A stretch of 64,000 nucleotides of DNA. Source: a bacterium HR40. Lineage in GTDB: Bacteria > Pseudomonadota > Alphaproteobacteria > Geminicoccales > Geminicoccaceae. Shown piece after piece: positions 1-12,435 of this stretch. Location: the NCBI GenBank assembly GCA_002898275.1, contig BEIQ01000001.1, positions 551,899-615,898 of the forward strand. The letters run 5' to 3'. The notes beneath the pieces were generated by a model, which saw nothing but the letters and a program-made list of their open reading frames with translations, did no database searches and was not told the origin of the DNA. The position numbers and the translations under genes are program-made. How positions within the stretch are numbered: position 1 is the stretch's first letter; each line of letters starts with the position of its first letter.

Positions 1-890
1 GCGCTTTCCTCGTCCGCAGCGCTTTCCGCTCGCTCGGTCCATCGTCCGGTGAAAGCGGCTCGCGGGCGAAGGGTTGGCGAAGGCGGAGGCGATGGTGACA
101 CCGCCACTCGTCACGGCCGCCGAGCTCGCCCGCGCGCACGAGGCGGCGTTCGTCGAGGCGGCGCTGGCCGGGCGAGTGACGCGGGAGCAGCTCCGCTAGC
201 TGGGGCGAGCGTGGAGCGAGAGCCTCGTGGCCCGGGTGCGAGCCGCCGTGGGCGGCACCGTCTCGGCCGCCCGTTTGGTGCGCGAGCGGAAAGTCGTCGG
301 CGATCTCGCAGGCAGCGGCCACCGTACCGGTCTCGAAGGGACGAGGGGGTGTCTCTTCGACGATCTGGCCGTCGCCATTCGGATATTGCGGACGGAAGGC
401 ATGATCGGGACGGCGCTCGTGCTCCACCTCGACGTGTATCGGGGGCGATGGCACGGCGCGGATCTTCGCCGGCGATCCCGAGGTCCGGCCGGTATCGCTG
501 CATCGCGCCGCCGATTGCCGCTTGCGCGGCGGCGCGAGGCGGATGGACGTCGATCTCGCGCCTCGCACCGACGATCGGAGCGACCTCGCGATCTTGGACC
601 GCACCCTCGCCGAGGTGCTGCCGGCGGCACGCCCCGATCTCGTCCTCGACATCGCCGGGTCGGAACCCCGCCAGGACGACCACCTCGGGCGTCTCGCCCT
701 AGCGATGCGGGGCTCTGTGCGCGCTCTCCGGGTGTTCGCTGCCCGGCGTCACAGCCGCTTGCCGGTCGTCCGCGTTGCCGGTGGCGGCTATGGCGGGATC
801 GAAAAGGCGGCGGCCCGCCGCACGCCGCTCTTTCGTGCGCTCGCCGCCCCGGTGAACGTCGCTAGAGGTCGAAGATCTTGCCCGGGTTGA
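1..890 (+). pseudogene. Decayed histone deacetylase / acetoin-utilisation family gene
   Basis: Conceptual translation follows the HDAC-like amidohydrolase fold for most of its length: a QRFPLAR-like N-terminal motif, then AELARAHEAAFVEA, an AVGG segment, a GSGH segment where the family has G-S/T-H-H, a DDLAVAIRIL helix, HLDVYRG, GDGTARIFAGDP, and a C-terminal AGSEP...GRLALAM...GGGY block. The frame is broken by TGA at 50-52, TAG at 197-199, and one extra G in the five-G run at 441-445, which moves the reading from frame 2 to frame 3. The expected zinc ligands are also lost: D-V-H reads D-V-Y, and the late Asp of the G-x-D-P motif reads Glu. The 5' end lies outside the window and the 3' end overlaps the convergent oxidase by about 29 bp. 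Homology is from remembered family motifs, so the exact subfamily is uncertain. Confidence 0.8.
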
Positions 891-2253
891 GGATACCTCG
901 GGGGTCGAGGGCCTGCTTGATCGCCCGCATCACCCCGACCGCTTCGCCCATCTCCTGAAGCAAGCTGGCCTTCTTGCCGAGGCCGATGCCATGCTCGCCG
1001 GTGCAGGTGCCGCCCGCGGCGAGCGCTCGCTCCACCAAACGGCGGTTGAGCTCGCGGACGTCCCGCCACTCCTCCTCGCGCGCCGGGTCGACGAGAAAGA
1101 TGACGTGGAAATTGCCGTCTCCCACGTGGCCGACGATGGTGGCCGGCAGGCCGCTTTCTTCGATATCGAGTCGAGTATCGCGGATACAACGGGCGAGCGC
1201 CGAGACCGGGACGCAGACATCCGTCACCCAGGCCTCGGCACCGGGGCGCAAGGCCTTGGCCGCATAGTAGGCATCGTGGCGCGCTCGCCACAGGCGGCCG
1301 CGCTCCTCCGGCAAGTTCGACCAGCGGAAGGCACCGCCGCCGTGCCGGCAGGCGATGTCGCCGGCGGCAGCACTCTGCTCGGCGACCGCGGCCTGGCTGC
1401 CATGGAATTCGTAGAACAGGGTGGGGAGGGGATCGAAGCCCTCGAGCCGGGCAAAGGCGATGCAGGTCGCCATCTGCGCGGCATCGAGCAGCTCGATGCG
1501 GGCGACGGGAATGCCGCAACCGACGGTCTCGACCACTGCCGCCACCGCCGCCTCGACATCGGGAAAGGTGCACACCGCAGCGGCGATAGCTTCCGGCACC
1601 GGCCAAAGTCTCAGGGTGAGCTCCGTGATGATCCCGAGGGTCCCCTCCGAGCCGAGGAACAGACGCGTGAGGTCGTAGCCGGCGCTCGATTTGCGGGCCT
1701 GCCCCCCGGTGCGGATCACCCGGCCGTCGGCGAGGACCACGCTCAGCCCCAGCACGTTCTCGCGCATGCCGCCATAGCGCACCGTCGTGGTACCAGTGGC
1801 GCGCGTCGCTGCCATGCCGCCGAGGCTGGCATCTGCCCCGGGATCCACGGGGAAGAAAAGACCGGTGTCGCGCAGCTCGTGGGCGAGCTGGCGTCGGGTC
1901 ACGCCTGCCTCGACGACGACGTCCATGTCCTCGCGATGGAGCGCAAGCACGCGGTTCATGCGCGACAGATCGAGACAGACGCCACCCTGCACCGCCGCCA
2001 CATGACCCTCGAGGGAGGTGCCCGTGCCGAAAGGAACGAGAGGCACACCGGCTTGATGGCAGGCGCGAGCCACTTCGACGACCTCGTCGGTACTGTCGGG
2101 GAACACCACCAGGTCCGGTGGAGCTGGTGGATGGAAAGCCTCCCCGCGGCCGTGCCGCTCGCGGATCGACGGATTGCGCGTCGCCCGCTCGCCGAAGCGT
2201 GCCTCGAGCCAGGCCAAGAGTTCCTCTCGCGCGTCCACGCCCTGTCTCGTCAC
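862..2253 (-). CDS. FAD-linked D-lactate dehydrogenase / glycolate oxidase GlcD-type
   Basis: A 463-residue flavoprotein of the vanillyl-alcohol-oxidase fold that oxidises a 2-hydroxy acid, most likely D-lactate, and passes electrons to cytochrome c or quinone. The FAD-binding half shows PFGTGTSLEGH near residue 74 and GSEGTLGIITELTLRL near 191. The C-terminal half shows GHVGDGNFH near 375 and CTGEHGIGLGKK near 417, the signature of LDHD/DLD/GlcD enzymes. The GTG start at 2253 is chosen because an AGGAGG ribosome-binding site lies about 8 bases upstream and the domain begins right after it. It is a single gene, divergent from the flagellar block. Substrate cannot be fixed from sequence; GlcD of glycolate oxidase is the main alternative, but no glcE or glcF is adjacent. 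Confidence 0.88.
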   Translation of the reverse strand: MTRQGVDAREELLAWLEARFGERATRNPSIRERHGRGEAFHPPAPPDLVVFPDSTDEVVEVARACHQAGVPLVPFGTGTSLEGHVAAVQGGVCLDLSRMNRVLALHREDMDVVVEAGVTRRQLAHELRDTGLFFPVDPGADASLGGMAATRATGTTTVRYGGMRENVLGLSVVLADGRVIRTGGQARKSSAGYDLTRLFLGSEGTLGIITELTLRLWPVPEAIAAAVCTFPDVEAAVAAVVETVGCGIPVARIELLDAAQMATCIAFARLEGFDPLPTLFYEFHGSQAAVAEQSAAAGDIACRHGGGAFRWSNLPEERGRLWRARHDAYYAAKALRPGAEAWVTDVCVPVSALARCIRDTRLDIEESGLPATIVGHVGDGNFHVIFLVDPAREEEWRDVRELNRRLVERALAAGGTCTGEHGIGLGKKASLLQEMGEAVGVMRAIKQALDPRGILNPGKIFDL

Positions 2254-2417
2254 CCTCCGTCCTCCTGCGCGCCGCCCTTTTTCTGCCACGAGCTTCGCGC
2301 TGCGGCGAGGGTCGGCAAACCCGTCCCGGGGAGGGACGAAGAGGTGGGCAGGGCTTGCCGAGGGGGTGGCGAAGGCCTGCCACGGTCCGGACGCCCGCGC
2401 GATAGTGTGGCGATGGC

Positions 2418-2433
2418 TGGCACAGGGCTTGCA
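2418..2433 (+). promoter_or_regulatory. Sigma-54 (-24/-12) promoter of the fliK-flgD-flgE group
   Basis: TGGCACAGGGCTTGCA matches the consensus TGGCAC-N5-TTGCA with GG (2419-2420) and GC (2431-2432) exactly ten bases apart. Transcription would begin near 2444, only about five bases before the fliK ATG at 2449. The cluster encodes the sigma-54 activator FlbD, which supports use of this site. The short leader is odd and is noted under findings. Confidence 0.75.
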
Positions 2434-2448
2434 TCTCGAGCCGGTGCC

Positions 2449-3828
2449 ATGACTGAGACCATCGATCCCATCGCCGTTCCAGCTGCCCGTTCGGGCACCG
2501 TCGTCACGGTCCCCGATCCGCTGGCATCGTCGGTCTTTGCCGCCCTGCTCGCGACCGTGCTCGGCAGTGCGGGACGACCGGAGTTCGTGGCCGATTCCTC
2601 GCCGTGGCCACCCTCCGGCACCGGCTCGCCCTCGCCATGGACACCGTCCCCTGGGGCCATGTCGGATATCGCCGGGGCCGCGGCGGGGTTCATCGACGCG
2701 ACGGGCTCCGGGACACAGCGTGCGGTCACGTTCCCCCATGCTATGCCGGCAGAGCCGCAACTTCCGGCAGCGAGCGGCCCGATGCCGAACCGTTCGCTGC
2801 AGGAGTGGGCGACGACGGAAGAGCGGGCCGCGCCCGCGGAGCCCGCGGCGCTGCCCGGGAGCATGACGGATTCCCGCCTCCCCGGTCGTGCCTTCCCGTT
2901 CTTTGTGCACGCCGGCGCTCCGGTTCGCGCCGAGGCGATGGTCTCGCCGCCGCCTCCGCTGGCGCTGCCGAGCGACGATGGCGCGCAGATCCCCTATAGC
3001 GAGGTCGGACCGACCGAACCACTGGCCGCGCAGCCGGGCACCGAGCTGGCACCTGCGGCCGAGGCTTCGCCATCCGCCGCCACCGCCCGCGCCGAGCCGC
3101 CGATCCCGGCGCTGCTGCGCGCTTTCGCCGACGGTGCGGTGGCGTTGCGCGCGCAAAGGGTAGGAACAGGCAAGGGGCAATCGGTGGGGGCGGCGCCGGC
3201 AGTCCCGAGCGCGGCCTCGGCCCCGGGTCGGTCCATGGAGGCTGCTCCGAACCGGCAGCCGTCCTCCCCTCCGGCCGCAGGGCTCGCTGCCGTCGACGCC
3301 GATCCTGCGCCGCTGTCCGCGGATCGGCAGTGGCCAGCCGATCCGGCGGCGGGCGCGACCGAAAGTCTGGCGGTTGCCGGACGAGTGGCCGAAGGTCCAT
3401 CTGCACCCACCGTCCAGCCGTCCCGACTGCCCGTCTATGTCGGCGTGCGACCGAGCGAATTGCCGGCCCTCGCCATGCACGCGCTCGCCCATGCCCGACA
3501 GCGGATCGTCGTCGCCCTGGAGCCGGCGGAGCTCGGTCGGGTGCGGGTCAGCGTCGAGTTCGCGCCCGACGGACGAGTCCAGGTCAAACTGCGCATCCAG
3601 AAGGAAGAAGCGCTCGAGCGGCTGCAGCGCGAGGCCGGCAGCTTCGCGCGCATCTTCGCCGCCCACGGCTTCGAGCTCGGGCCCCAGGGCCTGGCGTTCG
3701 AGCGTGGAGATGAGGAACGCTCGCCGGACGAGGGTGGCGATCGACCCGAAACCGATGGCCAAAACGGTCGTCGGGCAGCCACGGAGTTCGCAGCCGTGCT
3801 GGAACGCCTCTTCGACCTGCGCACCTGA
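2449..3828 (+). CDS. fliK: Flagellar hook-length control protein FliK
   Basis: A 459-residue protein. The first roughly 320 residues are Pro/Ala-rich and of low complexity, as in FliK rulers. The globular C-terminal domain (about 325-415) has the Flg_hook pattern: VALEPAELGRVRVSVEF, then KEEALERLQREAGSFARI and AAHGFELG. FliK is secreted during hook assembly, measures hook length and switches FlhB to filament export. It is followed by flgD and flgE, the scaffold and hook subunit it monitors. The ATG at 2449 is preferred over the in-frame ATG at 2413 because a sigma-54 promoter overlaps the latter; neither has a strong ribosome-binding site. Identification rests on the C-terminal domain and gene order. 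Confidence 0.86.
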   Translation: MTETIDPIAVPAARSGTVVTVPDPLASSVFAALLATVLGSAGRPEFVADSSPWPPSGTGSPSPWTPSPGAMSDIAGAAAGFIDATGSGTQRAVTFPHAMPAEPQLPAASGPMPNRSLQEWATTEERAAPAEPAALPGSMTDSRLPGRAFPFFVHAGAPVRAEAMVSPPPPLALPSDDGAQIPYSEVGPTEPLAAQPGTELAPAAEASPSAATARAEPPIPALLRAFADGAVALRAQRVGTGKGQSVGAAPAVPSAASAPGRSMEAAPNRQPSSPPAAGLAAVDADPAPLSADRQWPADPAAGATESLAVAGRVAEGPSAPTVQPSRLPVYVGVRPSELPALAMHALAHARQRIVVALEPAELGRVRVSVEFAPDGRVQVKLRIQKEEALERLQREAGSFARIFAAHGFELGPQGLAFERGDEERSPDEGGDRPETDGQNGRRAATEFAAVLERLFDLRT

Positions 3829-3859
3829 GAGTGACGATCATGGAGGAAGGCCGAGTGTC

Positions 3860-4525
3860 ATGAACGTGACGTCCACCACCTCCACGGCTTCCCGCTCGAG
3901 CGGTCGCGGCACCGGTGTCATCACCGGCTTCGAGGACTTCTTGCGGTTGCTCACCGCCCAGCTCCAGCACCAGGATCCCCTCGGGCCGATCGATGCCGAC
4001 CGGTTCACCCAGCAGCTCGCCGAGTTCGCGGCGGTGGAACAGGCGACGCGAGCCAACGACCGGCTCGAGAGGCTGATCGACACGGTGGCCGCCGGACAGT
4101 TGCTGGTGGCTGCCGGCTACGTCGGCCGACAGGTGGAGCTCGCAGGCGATGAGCTTTACCTCGGCCAAGACGGTGTCGCCGAAGTCTCCTACCGGTTGTT
4201 GCGGGACGCGGCATCGGCCGAGCTCGTGATCCGCGATGGCGCGGGCAAGGTAGTGCGACGCCTCGCGATCCCCACCGAGGCGGGCGTCCACCGGGTGCAA
4301 TGGGACGGCCGCAATGCGGCAGGGTCGGCCGTACCGAGCGGCACCTACCGGGTCGAGGTCGCTGCCAAGGATGGCGCTGGCGACCCGGTTCCTGCCGACC
4401 TGCGCACCGCCGGCACGGTCGAAGCCGTGGCCCTCGAGGGAAATACCCTTCTGCTGACGGTCGGCGGGCTGCGAGTGCCGGCGACCAGCGTCACCGCCGT
4501 TCGAGCAGCCGCGACCGCCTCCTGA
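3860..4525 (+). CDS. flgD: Flagellar hook assembly scaffold FlgD
   Basis: A 221-residue hook cap/scaffolding protein needed to polymerise FlgE on the rod. The N-terminal FlgD signature is clear: FEDFLRLLTAQLQHQDPLGP followed by DADRFTQQLAEFAAVEQ. The C-terminal part has the FlgD Ig/Tudor-like segment around VHRVQWDGRNAAGSAVPSG. The ATG at 3860 follows a GGAGGAAGG stretch at 3842-3850. A short overlapping frame opens at 3839 but ends within 24 bases. It lies between fliK and flgE, 31 bases after fliK, and is presumably co-transcribed. Confidence 0.93.
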   Translation: MNVTSTTSTASRSSGRGTGVITGFEDFLRLLTAQLQHQDPLGPIDADRFTQQLAEFAAVEQATRANDRLERLIDTVAAGQLLVAAGYVGRQVELAGDELYLGQDGVAEVSYRLLRDAASAELVIRDGAGKVVRRLAIPTEAGVHRVQWDGRNAAGSAVPSGTYRVEVAAKDGAGDPVPADLRTAGTVEAVALEGNTLLLTVGGLRVPATSVTAVRAAATAS

Positions 4526-4559
4526 CAGCCGTCTCGATCCAGCTTCTGGAGAAAGCCGC

Positions 4560-5873
4560 ATGACCCTCTTCGGTACGCTCTATTCCGGTGCCTCGGGTCT
4601 TGCCGCCCAGAGCCGCTCGCTCGGCATGATTTCGGACAATATCGCGAATGTGAATACCACCGGCTACAAAGGGGCGACCGCCCAGTTCGCTACCCTCGTC
4701 ACCCGCCAGGCAGGAACGGCGAGTTATGCGCCGGGCGGAGTGCGCGCGTTCACGGCCTTCAACGTGACCAAGCAGGGTCTGGTGCAGAGCACCGACTCGT
4801 CCACCGACGCCGCCATTTCCGGCAATGGGTTCTTCGTCGTCAACGCCAATGCGGACGGTACGGGCGAGCAGCTCTACACCCGTGCCGGCTCCTTCCTATC
4901 CGATCATCTCGGCAACCTCCGCACTCCCTCCGGGTTCTACCTGCAGGGCTGGGCTCTCGATGCCGACGAACAGATCGTCGACATCAATACTCTCGAGACG
5001 GTCAACATCCGCTCCATCAGCGGCGTAGCGATCGCCACCACCCGGGTCGAGATCGGTGCCAACCTCGATTCGACCACTTCCCCCTATACCGGAGCCTACA
5101 CGTCCGGAGACCTGGAACTCTATGCCTTCTCGTCGGGCACGCTCGGTGTACAACCCCACTTCCGCCGCGACATCCGCATTTTCGACAGTCTCGGAGAGGC
5201 GCACACGGTCACCCTCGCCTTTCTGAACACCGGCGCCAACACCTGGGAAGTCGAACTCTACGGCGATCGCGCCGACCTCGACAGTGGCACGCATCCGACC
5301 GGCCTGCTCGCCTCGGGGACGGTGACCTTCAACGGCGACGGCAGTCTCGCCAGTGTCACCGGCTCGATCGCCAGCGCGGTCACCATCGACTGGGCGAACG
5401 GGGCCGACGACAGCTCCATCGCCTTCGATCTCGGCACCGTCGGTGAAACCGATGGCCTCGCGCAGTTCGCTTCGGCCAACGATGTCGCCTTCGTCTTGCA
5501 GAACGGCGCCGAGGTCGGTCAGCTCAACCGTGTCTCCATCGACGAGGACGGCTATGTCGTCGCTTCGTTCACCAATGGCGCCGAGCGCAAGATCTATCGA
5601 TTGCCAATCGCTACGTTCGCCAATCCCTCCGGGCTCGATCCCCGCACGGGCAACGTCTTCGCCGAGACCGACGCGTCGGGCGAATACAATCTCCGCCTCG
5701 CTGGGACTGGCGGCGCGGGACGCCTGACACCTTCCGCCCTCGAGATGGCGAATGTCGATCTCGCCGATGAATTCACTCGCATGATCGTCACCCAGCGCGC
5801 GTATACGGCAAACGCTCGGGTGATCTCTACGGTAAATGAGATGCTCGACGAGCTGATGCAGATCAGGCGCTGA
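4560..5873 (+). CDS. flgE: Flagellar hook protein FlgE
   Basis: The 437-residue structural subunit of the flagellar hook, exported by the flagellar type III system. The N-terminal rod/hook signature reads GASGLAAQSRSLGMISDNIA followed by NVNTTGYKG. The C-terminal heptad region that packs against it reads MIVTQRAYTANARVISTV and NEMLDEL. The central variable domains carry FNGDGSLASVTG-type beta segments. It starts 34 bases after flgD with a GGAGAAAG ribosome-binding site. Length is normal for alphaproteobacterial hooks. Confidence 0.96.
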   Translation: MTLFGTLYSGASGLAAQSRSLGMISDNIANVNTTGYKGATAQFATLVTRQAGTASYAPGGVRAFTAFNVTKQGLVQSTDSSTDAAISGNGFFVVNANADGTGEQLYTRAGSFLSDHLGNLRTPSGFYLQGWALDADEQIVDINTLETVNIRSISGVAIATTRVEIGANLDSTTSPYTGAYTSGDLELYAFSSGTLGVQPHFRRDIRIFDSLGEAHTVTLAFLNTGANTWEVELYGDRADLDSGTHPTGLLASGTVTFNGDGSLASVTGSIASAVTIDWANGADDSSIAFDLGTVGETDGLAQFASANDVAFVLQNGAEVGQLNRVSIDEDGYVVASFTNGAERKIYRLPIATFANPSGLDPRTGNVFAETDASGEYNLRLAGTGGAGRLTPSALEMANVDLADEFTRMIVTQRAYTANARVISTVNEMLDELMQIRR

Positions 5874-5997
5874 TCGTTCTACTCGGGTACAACATTCGTT
5901 CGTTTACCATTCCGCTTAGCCGGGCGTTAAGATGCAGGATGTAATCGGAGCGGCGTCGACGCAGTCGAACGGTTCCACCGTGGAATGGAGGAACGCC

Positions 5998-6270
5998 GTG
6001 ACCACGAGCCCGACGCACCGCCCGGACTACGTGCCCGGACCAACCGGCCGCCCTTTGACCCTGGCCGATCTGCCGCCTCCGGATACCCGGCGTTGGGTCG
6101 CCCGCCGCAAGGCCGAGGTGGTGGCGGCCGTGCGCGGCGGCTTGTTGACCTTCGAGGAGGCCTGTGCGCGCTACGGTCTGACGGCGGAGGAGTTCCTGTC
6201 CTGGGAACGGGCACTCGACCGCTACGGACTCGACGGGCTGCGGGTCACCAAACTGCGCGTGTTCCGCTGA
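5998..6270 (+). CDS. sciP: CtrA inhibitor SciP (DUF1153)
   Basis: A 90-residue helix-turn-helix protein of the DUF1153 family. It is nearly collinear with Caulobacter SciP: YVPGPTGRPLTLADLPPPDT, then WVARRKAEVVAAVRGGLLTF, EEACARYGL and EEFLSWERALDRYGLDGLR. SciP binds CtrA-activated promoters and blocks RNA-polymerase recruitment, limiting CtrA-dependent flagellar and cell-cycle genes to part of the cycle. The GTG start at 5998 has GGAGG six bases upstream and gives the family length; an in-frame ATG at 5932 would add a non-conserved tail. Placement between flgE and fliF matches the Caulobacter arrangement. A TTTACCAT at 5903-5910 resembles one CtrA half-site, but the partner half is missing. 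Confidence 0.92.
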   Translation: MTTSPTHRPDYVPGPTGRPLTLADLPPPDTRRWVARRKAEVVAAVRGGLLTFEEACARYGLTAEEFLSWERALDRYGLDGLRVTKLRVFR

Positions 6271-6277
6271 CGCCGCC

Positions 6278-6294
6278 TTAAGCGTCCGTTTACC
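6278..6294 (+). promoter_or_regulatory. CtrA-box upstream of fliF
   Basis: TTAA-GCGTCCG-TTTACC (TTAA 6278-6281, seven-base spacer, TTTACC 6289-6294) differs from the CtrA consensus TTAA-N7-TTAACC at one base. It lies 55-71 bases before the fliF ATG and 8 bases after the sciP stop. In Caulobacter the fliF operon is a classic CtrA target. With sciP next door, the site would be where CtrA and SciP act. Confidence 0.65.
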
Positions 6295-6348
6295 GGGGGG
6301 GATTAGGCTGCCCGTGCCATTCCGCTCGTGGATGGGGAACGGACAGCC

Positions 6349-8118
6349 ATGGCCCAGGAGCTGCAGGCCGGCAGTGCCGAGAATGTGCCCGTAGTGGCGA
6401 GAAGCGGGCTGCCGGCACTGCTCGAGCAGCTGCGCGGCCTCGGACCGGGGCGCATTCTGGCGCTCGGGGCGGTCCTGCTGGCAATGCTCGGCTTTGCCGG
6501 CTTCGCCTTGCAACGGGCGCTCGAGCCGCGTTACGCGTTGCTGTTCGCCGGCCTCGAAAGCCGCGAGGTGGCGGCGATCACCGACAAGCTCGATGCCACC
6601 GGCGTACCCTGGCGTCTCAATGCCCGCGGCGATGCGGTGCTGGTGCCGGCCGACCGGGTGGCATCGGTGCGGATGGCGCTGGCCGAAGAGGGGCTGCCGG
6701 CCGGAGACGTCGTCGGCTACGAGCTCTTCGACCGCGGCGCAGGCTTTGCCACCACCGACTTTCAGGCCAACGTCAATCTCAAGCGCGCCCTCGAGGGCGA
6801 GCTGGCACGGACGATCTCGAGCCTCGAGGGGGTGCGGGCAGCCCGGGTCCATCTCGTCCAGCCGGTACGCCGGCTCTTCGAGAAGCAGACGGAAACGCCG
6901 AGCGCCTCCGTCTTCCTGTCGCTCGGCGCTGGGGCGAAGCTCGGGCGACGTCAGGTGGAGGGGATCCGTCATCTCGTTGCTTCCGCCGTACCGGGATTGG
7001 AGCCCGGACGCGTTACGGTCATGGATGACCGCGGCGAATTGCTCGCCCGCGGCGAGGCGGACGCCGAGGGCTTCGTGCTCGAGGAGGCGGACAGCTACCG
7101 CCGCGCCTTCGAGGAGAACCTGCGCGACAAGCTCGTGCGCGCGCTCGAGCGAACGGTGGGAGCCGGGCGCGTCGACGCCCAGGTCACCGCGGAGCTGGAT
7201 TTCGACGAGCGCACCAGTACCGAAGAGGTGTTCGACCCCCAGAGCCAAGTCGCACGCAGTACCCGTACCACCGAAGAGACGAGCGAGCGGAGCGAGACAG
7301 GCACGTCCCAAGCGGTCACCGTAACGAACAATCTGCCGGGCGCCCAGCAACCACCGGCGGCGGCGCCGACCAGCAACGAGCAGACGAACCGGACCGAGGA
7401 AGTCACCAACTACGAGCTGTCGCGCACGGTGCGCAGCCAGCGCCGGCGCGCACCGGAGATCCGCCGACTGTTCGTCGCTGTCCAGGTGGACGGCATCGAA
7501 GTCCAAGCGGCCGACGGATCCCGGCGGGTGGAGCCGCGGTCAGCGGAGGAACTCGCTCAGCTCGAGGCCATCGCCCGCGGCATCGCCGGCATCGACGAAG
7601 AGCGTGGCGACCGGCTGGAACTGGTGAGTCGACCCTTCGTGATGAACGGCTTGCCGGAGCTGCCGGAACCCTCGCTGATCGAGACGGTCATCGGCCACTA
7701 CGGCCATCTCCTCGAGAGTGCGCTGTGGCTGGCGGCGGCGGGTCTCGTGCTGGCATTCGGTCTTCGCCCGCTGCTGCGCCGGCTGCTTCCCTCCGGGCGC
7801 ACGCCCATCGTGCAGAGCGGACAGACCGCAGTGGTGCTCGCGGAGGACGGCAGGCCGCTTTTGGTGCACGCTCGCTCCGGGACCGTGGTGAGCGTCGACG
7901 AGGCGGGGCGTCCCGTGATCGAGGCGCGCGAGGAGGCGAAACCGGCGGTCCCGGCCGAGCAAGCGCCGGCCGAAATGCCGGCACCGAAGGGCGAGCTCGT
8001 CGATCTCAAGAACGTGCTCGGCAAGGTCAAGGCGTCGCTCGTCGACGAACTCGCCGACATCTTCGAGAAACATCCGGAAGAAGCCGTCCGGGTCATTCGC
8101 GGTTGGCTGCACGGCTGA
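6349..8118 (+). CDS. fliF: Flagellar MS-ring protein FliF
   Basis: A 589-residue inner-membrane ring protein on which the motor and export gate assemble. Two membrane segments bracket the periplasmic region: ILALGAVLLAMLGFAGFAL at about 36-54, and one at about 451-473. Ring-building motifs include FAGLESREVAAITDKLDATG, NVNLKRALEGELARTI and VRAARVHLVQP. The C-terminal tail KASLVDELADIFEKHPEEAV is the FliG-binding segment. The ATG at 6349 is chosen; the in-frame GTG at 6328 adds seven unconserved residues. A CtrA box lies just upstream, and fliG follows after 15 bases. Confidence 0.96.
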   Translation: MAQELQAGSAENVPVVARSGLPALLEQLRGLGPGRILALGAVLLAMLGFAGFALQRALEPRYALLFAGLESREVAAITDKLDATGVPWRLNARGDAVLVPADRVASVRMALAEEGLPAGDVVGYELFDRGAGFATTDFQANVNLKRALEGELARTISSLEGVRAARVHLVQPVRRLFEKQTETPSASVFLSLGAGAKLGRRQVEGIRHLVASAVPGLEPGRVTVMDDRGELLARGEADAEGFVLEEADSYRRAFEENLRDKLVRALERTVGAGRVDAQVTAELDFDERTSTEEVFDPQSQVARSTRTTEETSERSETGTSQAVTVTNNLPGAQQPPAAAPTSNEQTNRTEEVTNYELSRTVRSQRRRAPEIRRLFVAVQVDGIEVQAADGSRRVEPRSAEELAQLEAIARGIAGIDEERGDRLELVSRPFVMNGLPELPEPSLIETVIGHYGHLLESALWLAAAGLVLAFGLRPLLRRLLPSGRTPIVQSGQTAVVLAEDGRPLLVHARSGTVVSVDEAGRPVIEAREEAKPAVPAEQAPAEMPAPKGELVDLKNVLGKVKASLVDELADIFEKHPEEAVRVIRGWLHG

Positions 8119-10247: not shown

Positions 10248-11062
10248 GTGCGCATTGGCCTCGGACAGTCCGCGCTCTCGCCCTCGGGAGCCTGCCGGGA
10301 CTCTTGGCCACCGCGGTCGTCCTCGCCTTCACCCTTGCCGCTGCCGAGAGACCTTCCCTCTTCTTCGATCGGATTTCGATCCTCTTCGTGGTCGGAGGCA
10401 CGCTGACCGTGACCGCGGCGGCCGTGGGCGTGGACGAGATTCGCGTCCTCGCCAAGCTGCTGCCGCGGGCCCTGCTCCCACCCTCGGCGAGCGACACTGC
10501 TGGCCTGGTGGCCGAGCTCGTACGCATCGCCCGCATGACCCGTCGCGAGGGGCTGCTGTCGGTGGAGCCGACGCTGGCCTCGCTCGCTCACCTGCCGGTG
10601 CTGCAGCGGGGCCTCTCTCTGCTGCTCGAGGGTCGGGATCCCGGCGCGGTCGGCCGCCTCTTGGACCAAGAGGTCGACCGTCACTTGGAGCTCTTCCGCC
10701 GAGCCGAGACGGTCCTGCGCCAAGCGGCGGAGGTGGCGCCGGCGCTCGGCCTCCTCGGCACGCTCGTCGGTCTCGTGCGCATGCTGTCCGTCCTCGAAAC
10801 ACCGGAGCAAATCGGACCCGGCATGGCGGTGGCGCTGCTCACCACCTTCTATGGTGCCATTCTCGGGCATCTTCTCTTCGCTCCGCTCGCCGAGAGCCTC
10901 GTGAGGGCGCGCGAACGGGAGGAGCGGCTTCTGCGGCTGCAGGCCGAAACCGCGCTTTCCATCGGGCGACGCGAACATCCTCAGCTGCTCGCCGGCGCGG
11001 TGGCGACGCTGCTTCCTCTCGAGACGGATCCCGAGGCCGCTCTTGGCGCAACGGAATCTTAA
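10244..11062 (+). CDS. MotA-type flagellar stator / proton-channel protein
   Basis: A 272-residue membrane protein of the MotA/TolQ/ExbB family. Predicted membrane segments lie near residues 10-32, 40-60, 165-190 and 198-220. The conserved channel helices read PALGLLGTLVGLVRMLSVLE and GPGMAVALLTTFYGAILGHL, closely matching MotA, with the channel prolines in place. MotA forms the pentameric part of the stator around MotB. No motB or other OmpA-type partner is present in the window. It overlaps fliN by four bases and precedes flbD. In Caulobacter the fliF operon is not known to carry a MotA gene here, so this may be a second stator set. Confidence 0.8.
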   Translation: MSAHWPRTVRALALGSLPGLLATAVVLAFTLAAAERPSLFFDRISILFVVGGTLTVTAAAVGVDEIRVLAKLLPRALLPPSASDTAGLVAELVRIARMTRREGLLSVEPTLASLAHLPVLQRGLSLLLEGRDPGAVGRLLDQEVDRHLELFRRAETVLRQAAEVAPALGLLGTLVGLVRMLSVLETPEQIGPGMAVALLTTFYGAILGHLLFAPLAESLVRAREREERLLRLQAETALSIGRREHPQLLAGAVATLLPLETDPEAALGATES

Positions 11063-11103
11063 CCGGAACGCGCCATGCTGGCGGTGGCTCGGAGGACGGG
11101 ATC

Positions 11104-12435
11104 ATGAGGCTACTCATCGTCGGCAGGAATGCGGGCGACGTCGCGGAAGCGAGCCGGATCGCCGCTGGCCGCGGGGCGCGGGTGCGCCATGTGCCGGACT
11201 TCGAGACGGCGCTCGAGGAGCTGCGTGCCGGGCGCGGCGCCGATCTCTTGCTGGTGGAGCTCGGCATCGACGTCGCTCGAGTCATCGCCGCCTTGCGTCG
11301 CGAGCGCATCTTTTTGCCTGTCGTTGCCTATGGCGTCGATGCCGAGCCGGCCGAGGCTGCCGCGGCGATCAAGGCGGGAGCGATCGAATTCCTCCCTTTC
11401 CCGCCCGATGCCGACGCCATTGCCGCCCTCCTCGAAGGGGTGAGCGGCGATCCTGGCGAGTTCGTGGCTTCGGATCCGAAGATGCGGGAAGTGCTCGAGC
11501 TCGCACGCGTGTATGCGCGTTCGGATGCGAGTGTCTTGCTCATAGGCGAAAGCGGCACCGGCAAGGAGCGGCTCGCCCGCTTCCTGCACGAACACAGTCC
11601 GCGCGCCAGCGGCCCCTTCGTTTCGGTCAACTGCGCCGCCATTCCCGACAGCCTGCTCGAGAGCGAACTGTTCGGTCATGAGAAAGGAGCGTTTACCGGC
11701 GCCGTGGCCAGGCGGGTAGGCAAGTTCGAGGAAGCGAACGGTGGGACGCTCCTGCTCGACGAAATTTCCGAGATGGATGTGCGACTGCAGGCGAAACTGC
11801 TGCGCGCCATCCAGGAGCGGGAGATCGACCGTTTGGGGGGCAGCGGGCCCATCAGAGTCGATATCCGACTGATCGCCACCACCAACCGCGCGATCGAGGA
11901 GGAAGTGGCGGCCGGACGCTTTCGCGAGGACCTTTATTTCCGTCTGAGCGTGCTGGTCCTCGAGATTCCGCCGCTGCGCGAGCGGCCAGGCGACATCCGA
12001 GTCCTCGCCGAGCACTTCGCCCGTCGCTTCGCGCGCGCCAACGGCCTGCCTCATCGCCCCTTCACCGAGCGGGCGCTCGCCAAGCTCCGGGGCCATGTCT
12101 GGCGAGGCAACGTGCGCGAGCTCGAGAATGTCGTCCATCGCGCGGTGTTGCTCGCCCGCGGCCAGTCCATCGACGAGGAGGCCATTCTCTTGCGCGCTCC
12201 TGGGATGGGCCGCGAGGAACGCACCGCGGGTTCGGTTGGGCCCACCACCTCGACCCTGGTGGGCCGTTCGGTGGCCGAGGTGGAACGGGAACTCATCCTC
12301 GACACCCTGCGCCATACCTTGGGCAACCGCACGCGAGCGGCGCATCTGCTCGGTATCTCCATCCGCACGCTGCGCAATAAGCTGCGGGAATACGCGGAGG
12401 CCGGCATCCCTATCCCGCCGGCGCTTCAGGGGTGA
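11104..12435 (+). CDS. flbD: Sigma-54-dependent flagellar regulator FlbD
   Basis: A 443-residue NtrC-family activator. Its N-terminal receiver-like domain (1-115) resembles Caulobacter FlbD, including VVAYGVDAEP and AIKAGAIEFLPFPPDADAI. The position expected to hold the phospho-acceptor Asp is Glu (E52 in LLLVELGID). The AAA+ domain has Walker A GESGTGKE, the sigma-54-contacting GAFTGA loop, LLLDEISEMD and the arginine-finger region FREDLYFRL. The C terminus is a Fis-type helix-turn-helix (NRTRAAHLLGISIRTLRNKL). It should activate late flagellar promoters such as the one before fliK and repress early ones. The ATG has GGAGG upstream. FliX, its usual partner, is not in the window. Confidence 0.94.
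   Translation: MRLLIVGRNAGDVAEASRIAAGRGARVRHVPDFETALEELRAGRGADLLLVELGIDVARVIAALRRERIFLPVVAYGVDAEPAEAAAAIKAGAIEFLPFPPDADAIAALLEGVSGDPGEFVASDPKMREVLELARVYARSDASVLLIGESGTGKERLARFLHEHSPRASGPFVSVNCAAIPDSLLESELFGHEKGAFTGAVARRVGKFEEANGGTLLLDEISEMDVRLQAKLLRAIQEREIDRLGGSGPIRVDIRLIATTNRAIEEEVAAGRFREDLYFRLSVLVLEIPPLRERPGDIRVLAEHFARRFARANGLPHRPFTERALAKLRGHVWRGNVRELENVVHRAVLLARGQSIDEEAILLRAPGMGREERTAGSVGPTTSTLVGRSVAEVERELILDTLRHTLGNRTRAAHLLGISIRTLRNKLREYAEAGIPIPPALQG

Follow-up and report, generated by a model that had tools for sequence, protein, structure and literature searches.

The window, by which we mean the whole stretch of DNA analysed (64,000 nucleotides from bacterium HR40), carries a flagellar cluster with fliK, the gene of the hook-length control protein, and downstream of it flgD and flgE. 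The following features of the window are used below:

865 to 2253, minus strand: divergent FAD-linked oxidase gene with predicted start, from an open frame and domain match
2346 to 2360, plus strand: palindrome GGGCAGGGCTTGCCG (consensus CGGCAN5TGCCG), candidate FlbD enhancer site, from its conservation upstream of the promoter
2418 to 2433, plus strand: sigma-54 -24/-12 element TGGCACAGGGCTTGCA, from reading of the sequence, a shuffle test and conservation in relatives
2444 to 2449, plus strand: predicted transcription start zone, with the start at 2444 (12 nt past C2432), 2446 (G at -3) or the A of the ATG, from inferred geometry
2449 to 3828, plus strand: fliK, hook-length control protein of 459 aa, from a Flg_hook match
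3860 to 4525, plus strand: flgD, probable operon partner with an SD-like (Shine-Dalgarno-like) sequence, from a domain match and the SD rule
4560 to 5873, plus strand: flgE, hook protein, probable operon partner with an SD-like sequence, from a domain match and the SD rule
11464 to 11961, plus strand: sigma-54 interaction domain of an activator (probable FlbD), from a domain match; the open frame is 10255-12435, its start predicted

FliK was identified by its C-terminal Flg_hook domain (E 3.4e-10, 40.1 bits, cut-off 29.8). As the FAD-linked oxidase gene upstream is divergent, no co-directional upstream gene feeds fliK. The preliminary description of this DNA had placed FlbD in the same cluster, and frame 10255-12435 encodes an activator of the sigma-54 type whose AAA+ and Fis-type HTH domains, like its neighbourhood, are consistent with FlbD. 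The rpoN gene is present in the genome, outside the fliK cluster. A SciP-like DUF1153 protein is encoded at 5932-6270, between flgE and fliF in the flagellar cluster.

The preliminary description had further claimed a near-perfect -24/-12 element and a start about five bases ahead of the fliK ATG, and both claims stand. Within TGGCACAGGGCTTGCA, T2418 is followed by the GG at 2419-2420 and by CAC, and further on by TT, G2431, C2432 and A; exactly 10 bases separate GG and GC (2431-2432), all 11 of the 11 consensus positions are matched and the TGGCAC/TTGCW context is present. With C2432 taken as -12, the predicted +1 is 2444, which leaves a leader of 5 nt to the fliK ATG (2449-2451). Sigma-54 start points can differ by a base or two, and given this error a fliK leader of 0-5 nt agrees with the prediction; as the start is a predicted one, we use the word leaderless for fliK in the sense of 0-5 nt. 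A leader of 3-5 nt falls short of the strict definition, in which the 5' base is the A of AUG. The exact consensus TGGCACNNNNNTTGCW is matched once in the window, compared with 0.05 matches expected from 100 dinucleotide shuffles, and this is the sole exact match there. When two mismatches are permitted there is no enrichment (22 window matches, 19.8 expected), the whole 2.9-Mb genome contains only two exact matches, and the genome-wide one-mismatch totals (27+24) are below those of a reversed-pattern control (33+40), the motif being no commoner than chance. The motif taken alone is therefore weak evidence, and it is position and conservation that bear the case. The other exact match of the genome, at L087:8620-8635, precedes by 84 nt a gene for a Fer4_20/pyridine-nucleotide oxidoreductase that is adjoined by a dihydroorotate-dehydrogenase-type frame.

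Conservation was assessed in a sample of 31 Geminicoccaceae genomes, 25 of them with a Flg_hook match (G000 and 24 others). G020 contributes an N-terminal fliK fragment and in G029 the 5' part of fliK lies on a separate contig, for a total of 26 readable fliK starts; G017 has, beside its normal fliK, another frame with weak similarity to FliK (L086; G017:C278), which was kept out of the count. A GG-N10-GC site that matches 9 or more of the 11 consensus positions puts the predicted start 1-5 nt before the ATG in 18 of the 26 fliK genes, which, the genomes being related, do not amount to 18 independent events (the tree described below points to one loss). The predicted leader is 5 nt in G000, G023 and G029, 4 nt in G001, G005, G007, G008, G012, G015, G020, G025, G027 and G030, 2 nt in G004, G006, G013 and G017, and 1 nt in G002. 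In three of the 26 the spacing is retained but the element is damaged (-12 in G009 and G010, -24 in G003), and five have longer distances of 24-40 nt (40 nt, to a GTG, in G014, 24 nt in G018, 35 nt in G021, 24 nt in G024, 36 nt in G026), so that the near-leaderless layout is dispensable. The preliminary description had proposed comparing fliK starts and promoter in relatives and had named a lack of conservation of GG-N10-GC as the result that would speak against it; by this comparison the promoter and its spacing are conserved. Were the element a chance match and fliK without a sigma-54 promoter, genome-wide exact matches at about the chance expectation would be no surprise, but the element recurs at a constant position in 18 of 26 relatives, and 13 of 22 fliK loci outside the family have a sigma-54-like site, both of which contradict this. 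On conservation we rule out a chance motif, which we regard as exceedingly improbable.

One of the long-leadered genomes shows an additional small frame. In G021 (L078, about 4006-4037, reversed strand) an ATG 6 nt past the predicted start opens a frame of 10 codons whose TGA overlaps the fliK ATG (ATGA). It is possible that this is a leaderless minicistron coupled to fliK, as if an old leaderless AUG had been converted.

Upstream of the promoter, comparison of the relatives reveals the conserved palindrome CGGCAN5TGCCG, which with at most one mismatch and within 170 bp upstream of -24 is present at 18 of 23 Geminicoccaceae fliK promoters versus 3.7% of background windows. In 18 near-leaderless loci the palindrome selected (two mismatches or fewer) lies 69-102 bp upstream and is strongly phased at ~10.5 bp (10-11 bp); phasing as strong was seen in 0 of 20,000 random draws with each period tried, a figure that is not a probability because the genomes are related. 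The palindrome is probably the site of the FlbD-type activator; the copy at 2346-2360 presumably resembles the ftr site of FlbD. These data also bear on the idea that another upstream promoter mainly drives fliK from a long leader, still without an SD sequence, the sigma-54 element being secondary. The intergenic stretch of ~195 bp could accommodate such a promoter, and our scan detects alphaproteobacterial housekeeping promoters poorly. We nevertheless consider this arrangement unlikely, given that the scan found no sigma-70-type site in 2200-4600, and given the divergent gene upstream of fliK, the joint conservation of palindrome and sigma-54 element and the presence of sigma-54 fliK promoters in related orders as well. 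An Rfam search of 2000-6400 gave no match.

Regarding the start codon, we compared 18 loci, namely 16 of the 18 short-spaced family loci together with G009 and G010. All 18 fliK genes start with ATG and none with GTG or TTG. The triplet ahead of this ATG is always GCC or GGC, which puts G at -3 and C at -1; GCC-ATG is found in three more fliK loci, G003, G020 and G029, too. The combination GCC/GGC-ATG with G at -3, present in 18 of 18 fliK genes, occurs at only 4 of 22 flgE and 12 of 25 flgD starts. Two options had been offered at the outset, leaderless translation or a true fliK start further downstream, with the promoter-proximal ATG unused and an ordinary leader. The overall poor conservation of FliK N-termini would suit a downstream start, and the window offers in-frame GTG codons 37 and 47 as the next starts. 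However, in 15 of the 18 loci a hydrophobic FAxLLAxL-like motif begins at residue 27-32, counted from the promoter-proximal ATG (L067 was matched elsewhere by the loose expression, L070 and L071 were unmatched). In the window the motif is FAALLATV at residues 30-37, with codon 37 at its end and codon 47 past it, and in six loci (L062, L069, L075, L081, L083, L085) the next in-frame start lies beyond the motif. Moreover G012 and G025, two species of one genus, share MLQINAST directly at the ATG with base differences that are synonymous. Because the conserved N-terminal motif would be cut or lost, we ruled out a downstream start and give it a very small probability; of the two options it is leaderless translation that is favoured, with promoter and ATG spacing conserved in the family.

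One SD rule was applied to fliK, flgD and flgE alike: GGAG, GAGG, AGGA, AAGG or GGGA at 4-18 nt upstream. No such tetramer precedes the fliK ATG of the window, and in the family loci they precede 2 of 18 fliK starts compared with 22 of 22 flgE and 21 of 25 flgD starts, in line with the initial view that no space is left for a ribosome-binding site ahead of fliK. Over its first 45 nt the predicted fliK mRNA has little structure given its base composition (mean z +0.9 versus shuffles, n=18; controls: flgE -0.18, n=22, and inside fliK -0.19, n=36). With no SD sequence, an AUG start and a little-structured 5' end, fliK resembles leaderless mRNAs, its leader being predicted as 5 nt and those of its relatives as 1-5 nt.

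A short leader is not the general build of sigma-54 genes in these bacteria, as flgI and the family controls are leadered. In the same genome flgI (FlgI, E 1.3e-141) has the sigma-54 element TGGCACGAAAATGGCT (10/11), the palindrome CGGCAGAAACTGCCG and a 27-nt leader with GGGAG. Among 18 non-fliK sigma-54 places in the family, 10 are followed, 18-26 nt after the predicted +1, by what is plausibly the start of a gene, and a GGAG- or AGGA-type sequence could be seen by eye in 8 of the 10; the remaining 8 places have no gene start within 18-26 nt. We also inspected 20 family places with an ATG close to an exact sigma-54 match, nearly all of which are not gene starts; those at the G002 PII gene and at flgI of G008, for instance, were rejected because the true starts are likely further on, and G019:C150 was dropped as it is fliK-like by pattern but encodes another protein. 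A livH-like gene in G030 (L235, d=2) is a possible near-leaderless case. The spacing at a PII gene outside the family (L098) is ambiguous.

For fliK beyond the family, FlgE neighbourhoods in named genomes were used. We kept 80 of 113 relatives and found FliK upstream in 27 loci, 5 of them from Geminicoccaceae already among the 26 and 22 from outside the family. A sigma-54-like site (at least 9/11) lies 19-39 nt before a plausible fliK start in 13 of the 22 non-family loci, mostly as TGGCCC-N5-TTGCT, and a convincing site is absent from 9 of the 22. Of the four Emcibacter-type loci used, three also offer a GTG or TTG in frame at 8-10 nt; these codons were passed over because it is at the ATG that the N-termini line up. 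SD-like tetramers stand ahead of fliK in 8 of 11 outgroup loci checked. A FastTree phylogeny of FlgE, FliG and FliF with 21 family tips (one missing) and 11 outgroups (L152, L165 and G021 are absent) places the short-leader state at the base of Geminicoccaceae and nests the long-leader groups inside, with weak support on some deep branches. Ancestors of Geminicoccaceae probably had a fliK leader, and the topology suggests one loss at the base of the family followed by two regains. The fliK locus L255 of G117, outside the family, is ambiguous (d=5 or d=23); as a possible extra-family case it counts against the near-leaderless trait being confined to the family.

We favour, with a probability of about 0.76, a near-leaderless, non-SD fliK mRNA under RpoN/FlbD. 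RNA polymerase with sigma-54 (RpoN) would transcribe fliK, and probably flgD and flgE as well, from 2418-2433, activated by the cluster-encoded FlbD-type protein sitting on the palindrome at 2346-2360. Transcription would begin at or just before GCC-AUG, and with the mRNA 5' end 0-5 nt from the AUG, fliK would have to be translated without an SD sequence. Initiation at fliK may be of the 70S/leaderless type or another non-SD type, while flgD and flgE, carried by that message too, would be SD-led. The layout would have arisen through loss of a ~20-35-nt leader in the Geminicoccaceae ancestor. Of this scheme the comparison shows the promoter, the palindrome, the spacing, the start codon and the lack of an SD sequence; start point, activator identity, operon and mode of translation are inferred. 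As to any effect on the amount of FliK, a plausible use would be to make less of the hook ruler, which is scarce, than of the plentiful hook protein encoded on one message with it.

Class-wide pattern scans gave a match in 30 of 289 genomes and in 42 of 385 genomes. Close spacing at apparent gene starts was observed for an SLT-like gene (2 nt in G126, 4 nt in G164, 4 nt in G264, 2 nt in G318) and for the gene of an NPLQHIPV protein (5 nt in G169, 1 nt in G350, 5 nt in G283, 5 nt in G176), and at fliS of one family (L252, L253, L254; G127, G324, G401) a sigma-54 site lies 2-4 nt before the ATG. Use of this fliS ATG adds an N-terminal extension of 20-23 residues with the conserved start M(E/N)KLH. 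Most of the remaining matches are not at gene starts. Searches for SLT-like and NPLQHIPV-type genes in 190 class genomes each gave a match in 88 and 71, respectively, and the best 30 upstream regions of each were analysed. The first in-frame ATG lies 0-6 nt from a site (at least 9/11) in 7 of the best 30 in either family, where two of each seven were search seeds, starts are predicted and the cut-off is a loose one; on a rough estimate, chance alone would let about 1 in 20 through. Other loci with a site among the best 30 of each family mostly have longer leaders. The NPLQHIPV...IYR protein (L259:1532-2128, L263:772-1503, L269:1532-2056, L092:1532-2251) is often encoded behind a sigma-54 site; the single member scanned (L263) has no Pfam family. 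Alphaproteobacterial flagellar sigma-54 promoters might have collapsed repeatedly onto start codons. Near-leaderless mRNAs under activator control would then form a class, to which fliK of Geminicoccaceae, the SLT-domain/transglycosylase-like gene, the NPLQHIPV gene and fliS in one family would belong. Given the seeds, predicted starts, loose cut-off and chance rate this wider claim is suggestive only, and we hold it tentatively, at somewhat under even odds. If true, a non-SD first gene would be set against SD-led followers within one operon.

Flagellar sigma-54 promoters of Caulobacter crescentus work with an FlbD-type activator and an upstream site, as is proposed here. They likewise combine a -24/-12 element with flagellar genes, and the RpoN motif given for them is GGCNC-N4-CTTGC; in the text consulted, none was described as lying 1-5 nt from a start codon (PMC4287350). 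Leaderless mRNAs are reported in numbers of 375 for Caulobacter, where they are translated about equally to other messages (PMC4117421), and 171, all with AUG, for Sinorhizobium (PMC3616915), and in Bradyrhizobium 320 start points lie 0-10 nt from gene starts, 192 of them exactly, with an extended -10 motif upstream (PMC4842269). A review describes such messages as having their AUG at the 5' end or close to it, with a preference for AUG, and mentions the distance from the 5' end (PMC9031893). As far as these texts describe them, such mRNAs and fliK are alike in the AUG at or near the 5' end, the missing SD sequence and the little structure past the start; they differ in that the Bradyrhizobium motif is an extended -10 box and not sigma-54, whereas the fliK promoter here is activator-requiring and its leader probably 0-5 nt. 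Because leaderless mRNAs are common in Alphaproteobacteria, the mechanism is plausible and the fliK finding a variation rather than a new kind. In open-access text, figures excluded, we found no near-leaderless sigma-54 flagellar mRNAs; Sinorhizobium sigma-54 promoters are tallied by start-site class in a figure (PMC3616915). The fliK case would tie an activator-dependent sigma-54 system to non-SD translation where the ratio of hook ruler to hook protein matters, and starts of this kind may be misplaced by gene-finding programs that count on a ribosome-binding site. In Rhodospirillaceae, Emcibacter and related bacteria the same gene lies upstream of flgE behind a sigma-54 element, mostly of the TGGCCC form, but in contrast to Geminicoccaceae its leader is 19-39 nt long, with an SD-like sequence in 8 of 11 loci checked. 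The leadered state in these related orders and in two groups inside the family, and the leaderless state in most of the family, provide a natural, evolutionarily replicated test of the role of the 5' leader, with one gene, promoter type and operon present with and without it. Compared with these systems, sigma-54 promoter and leaderless mRNA are each known, and it is their conserved combination that is new.
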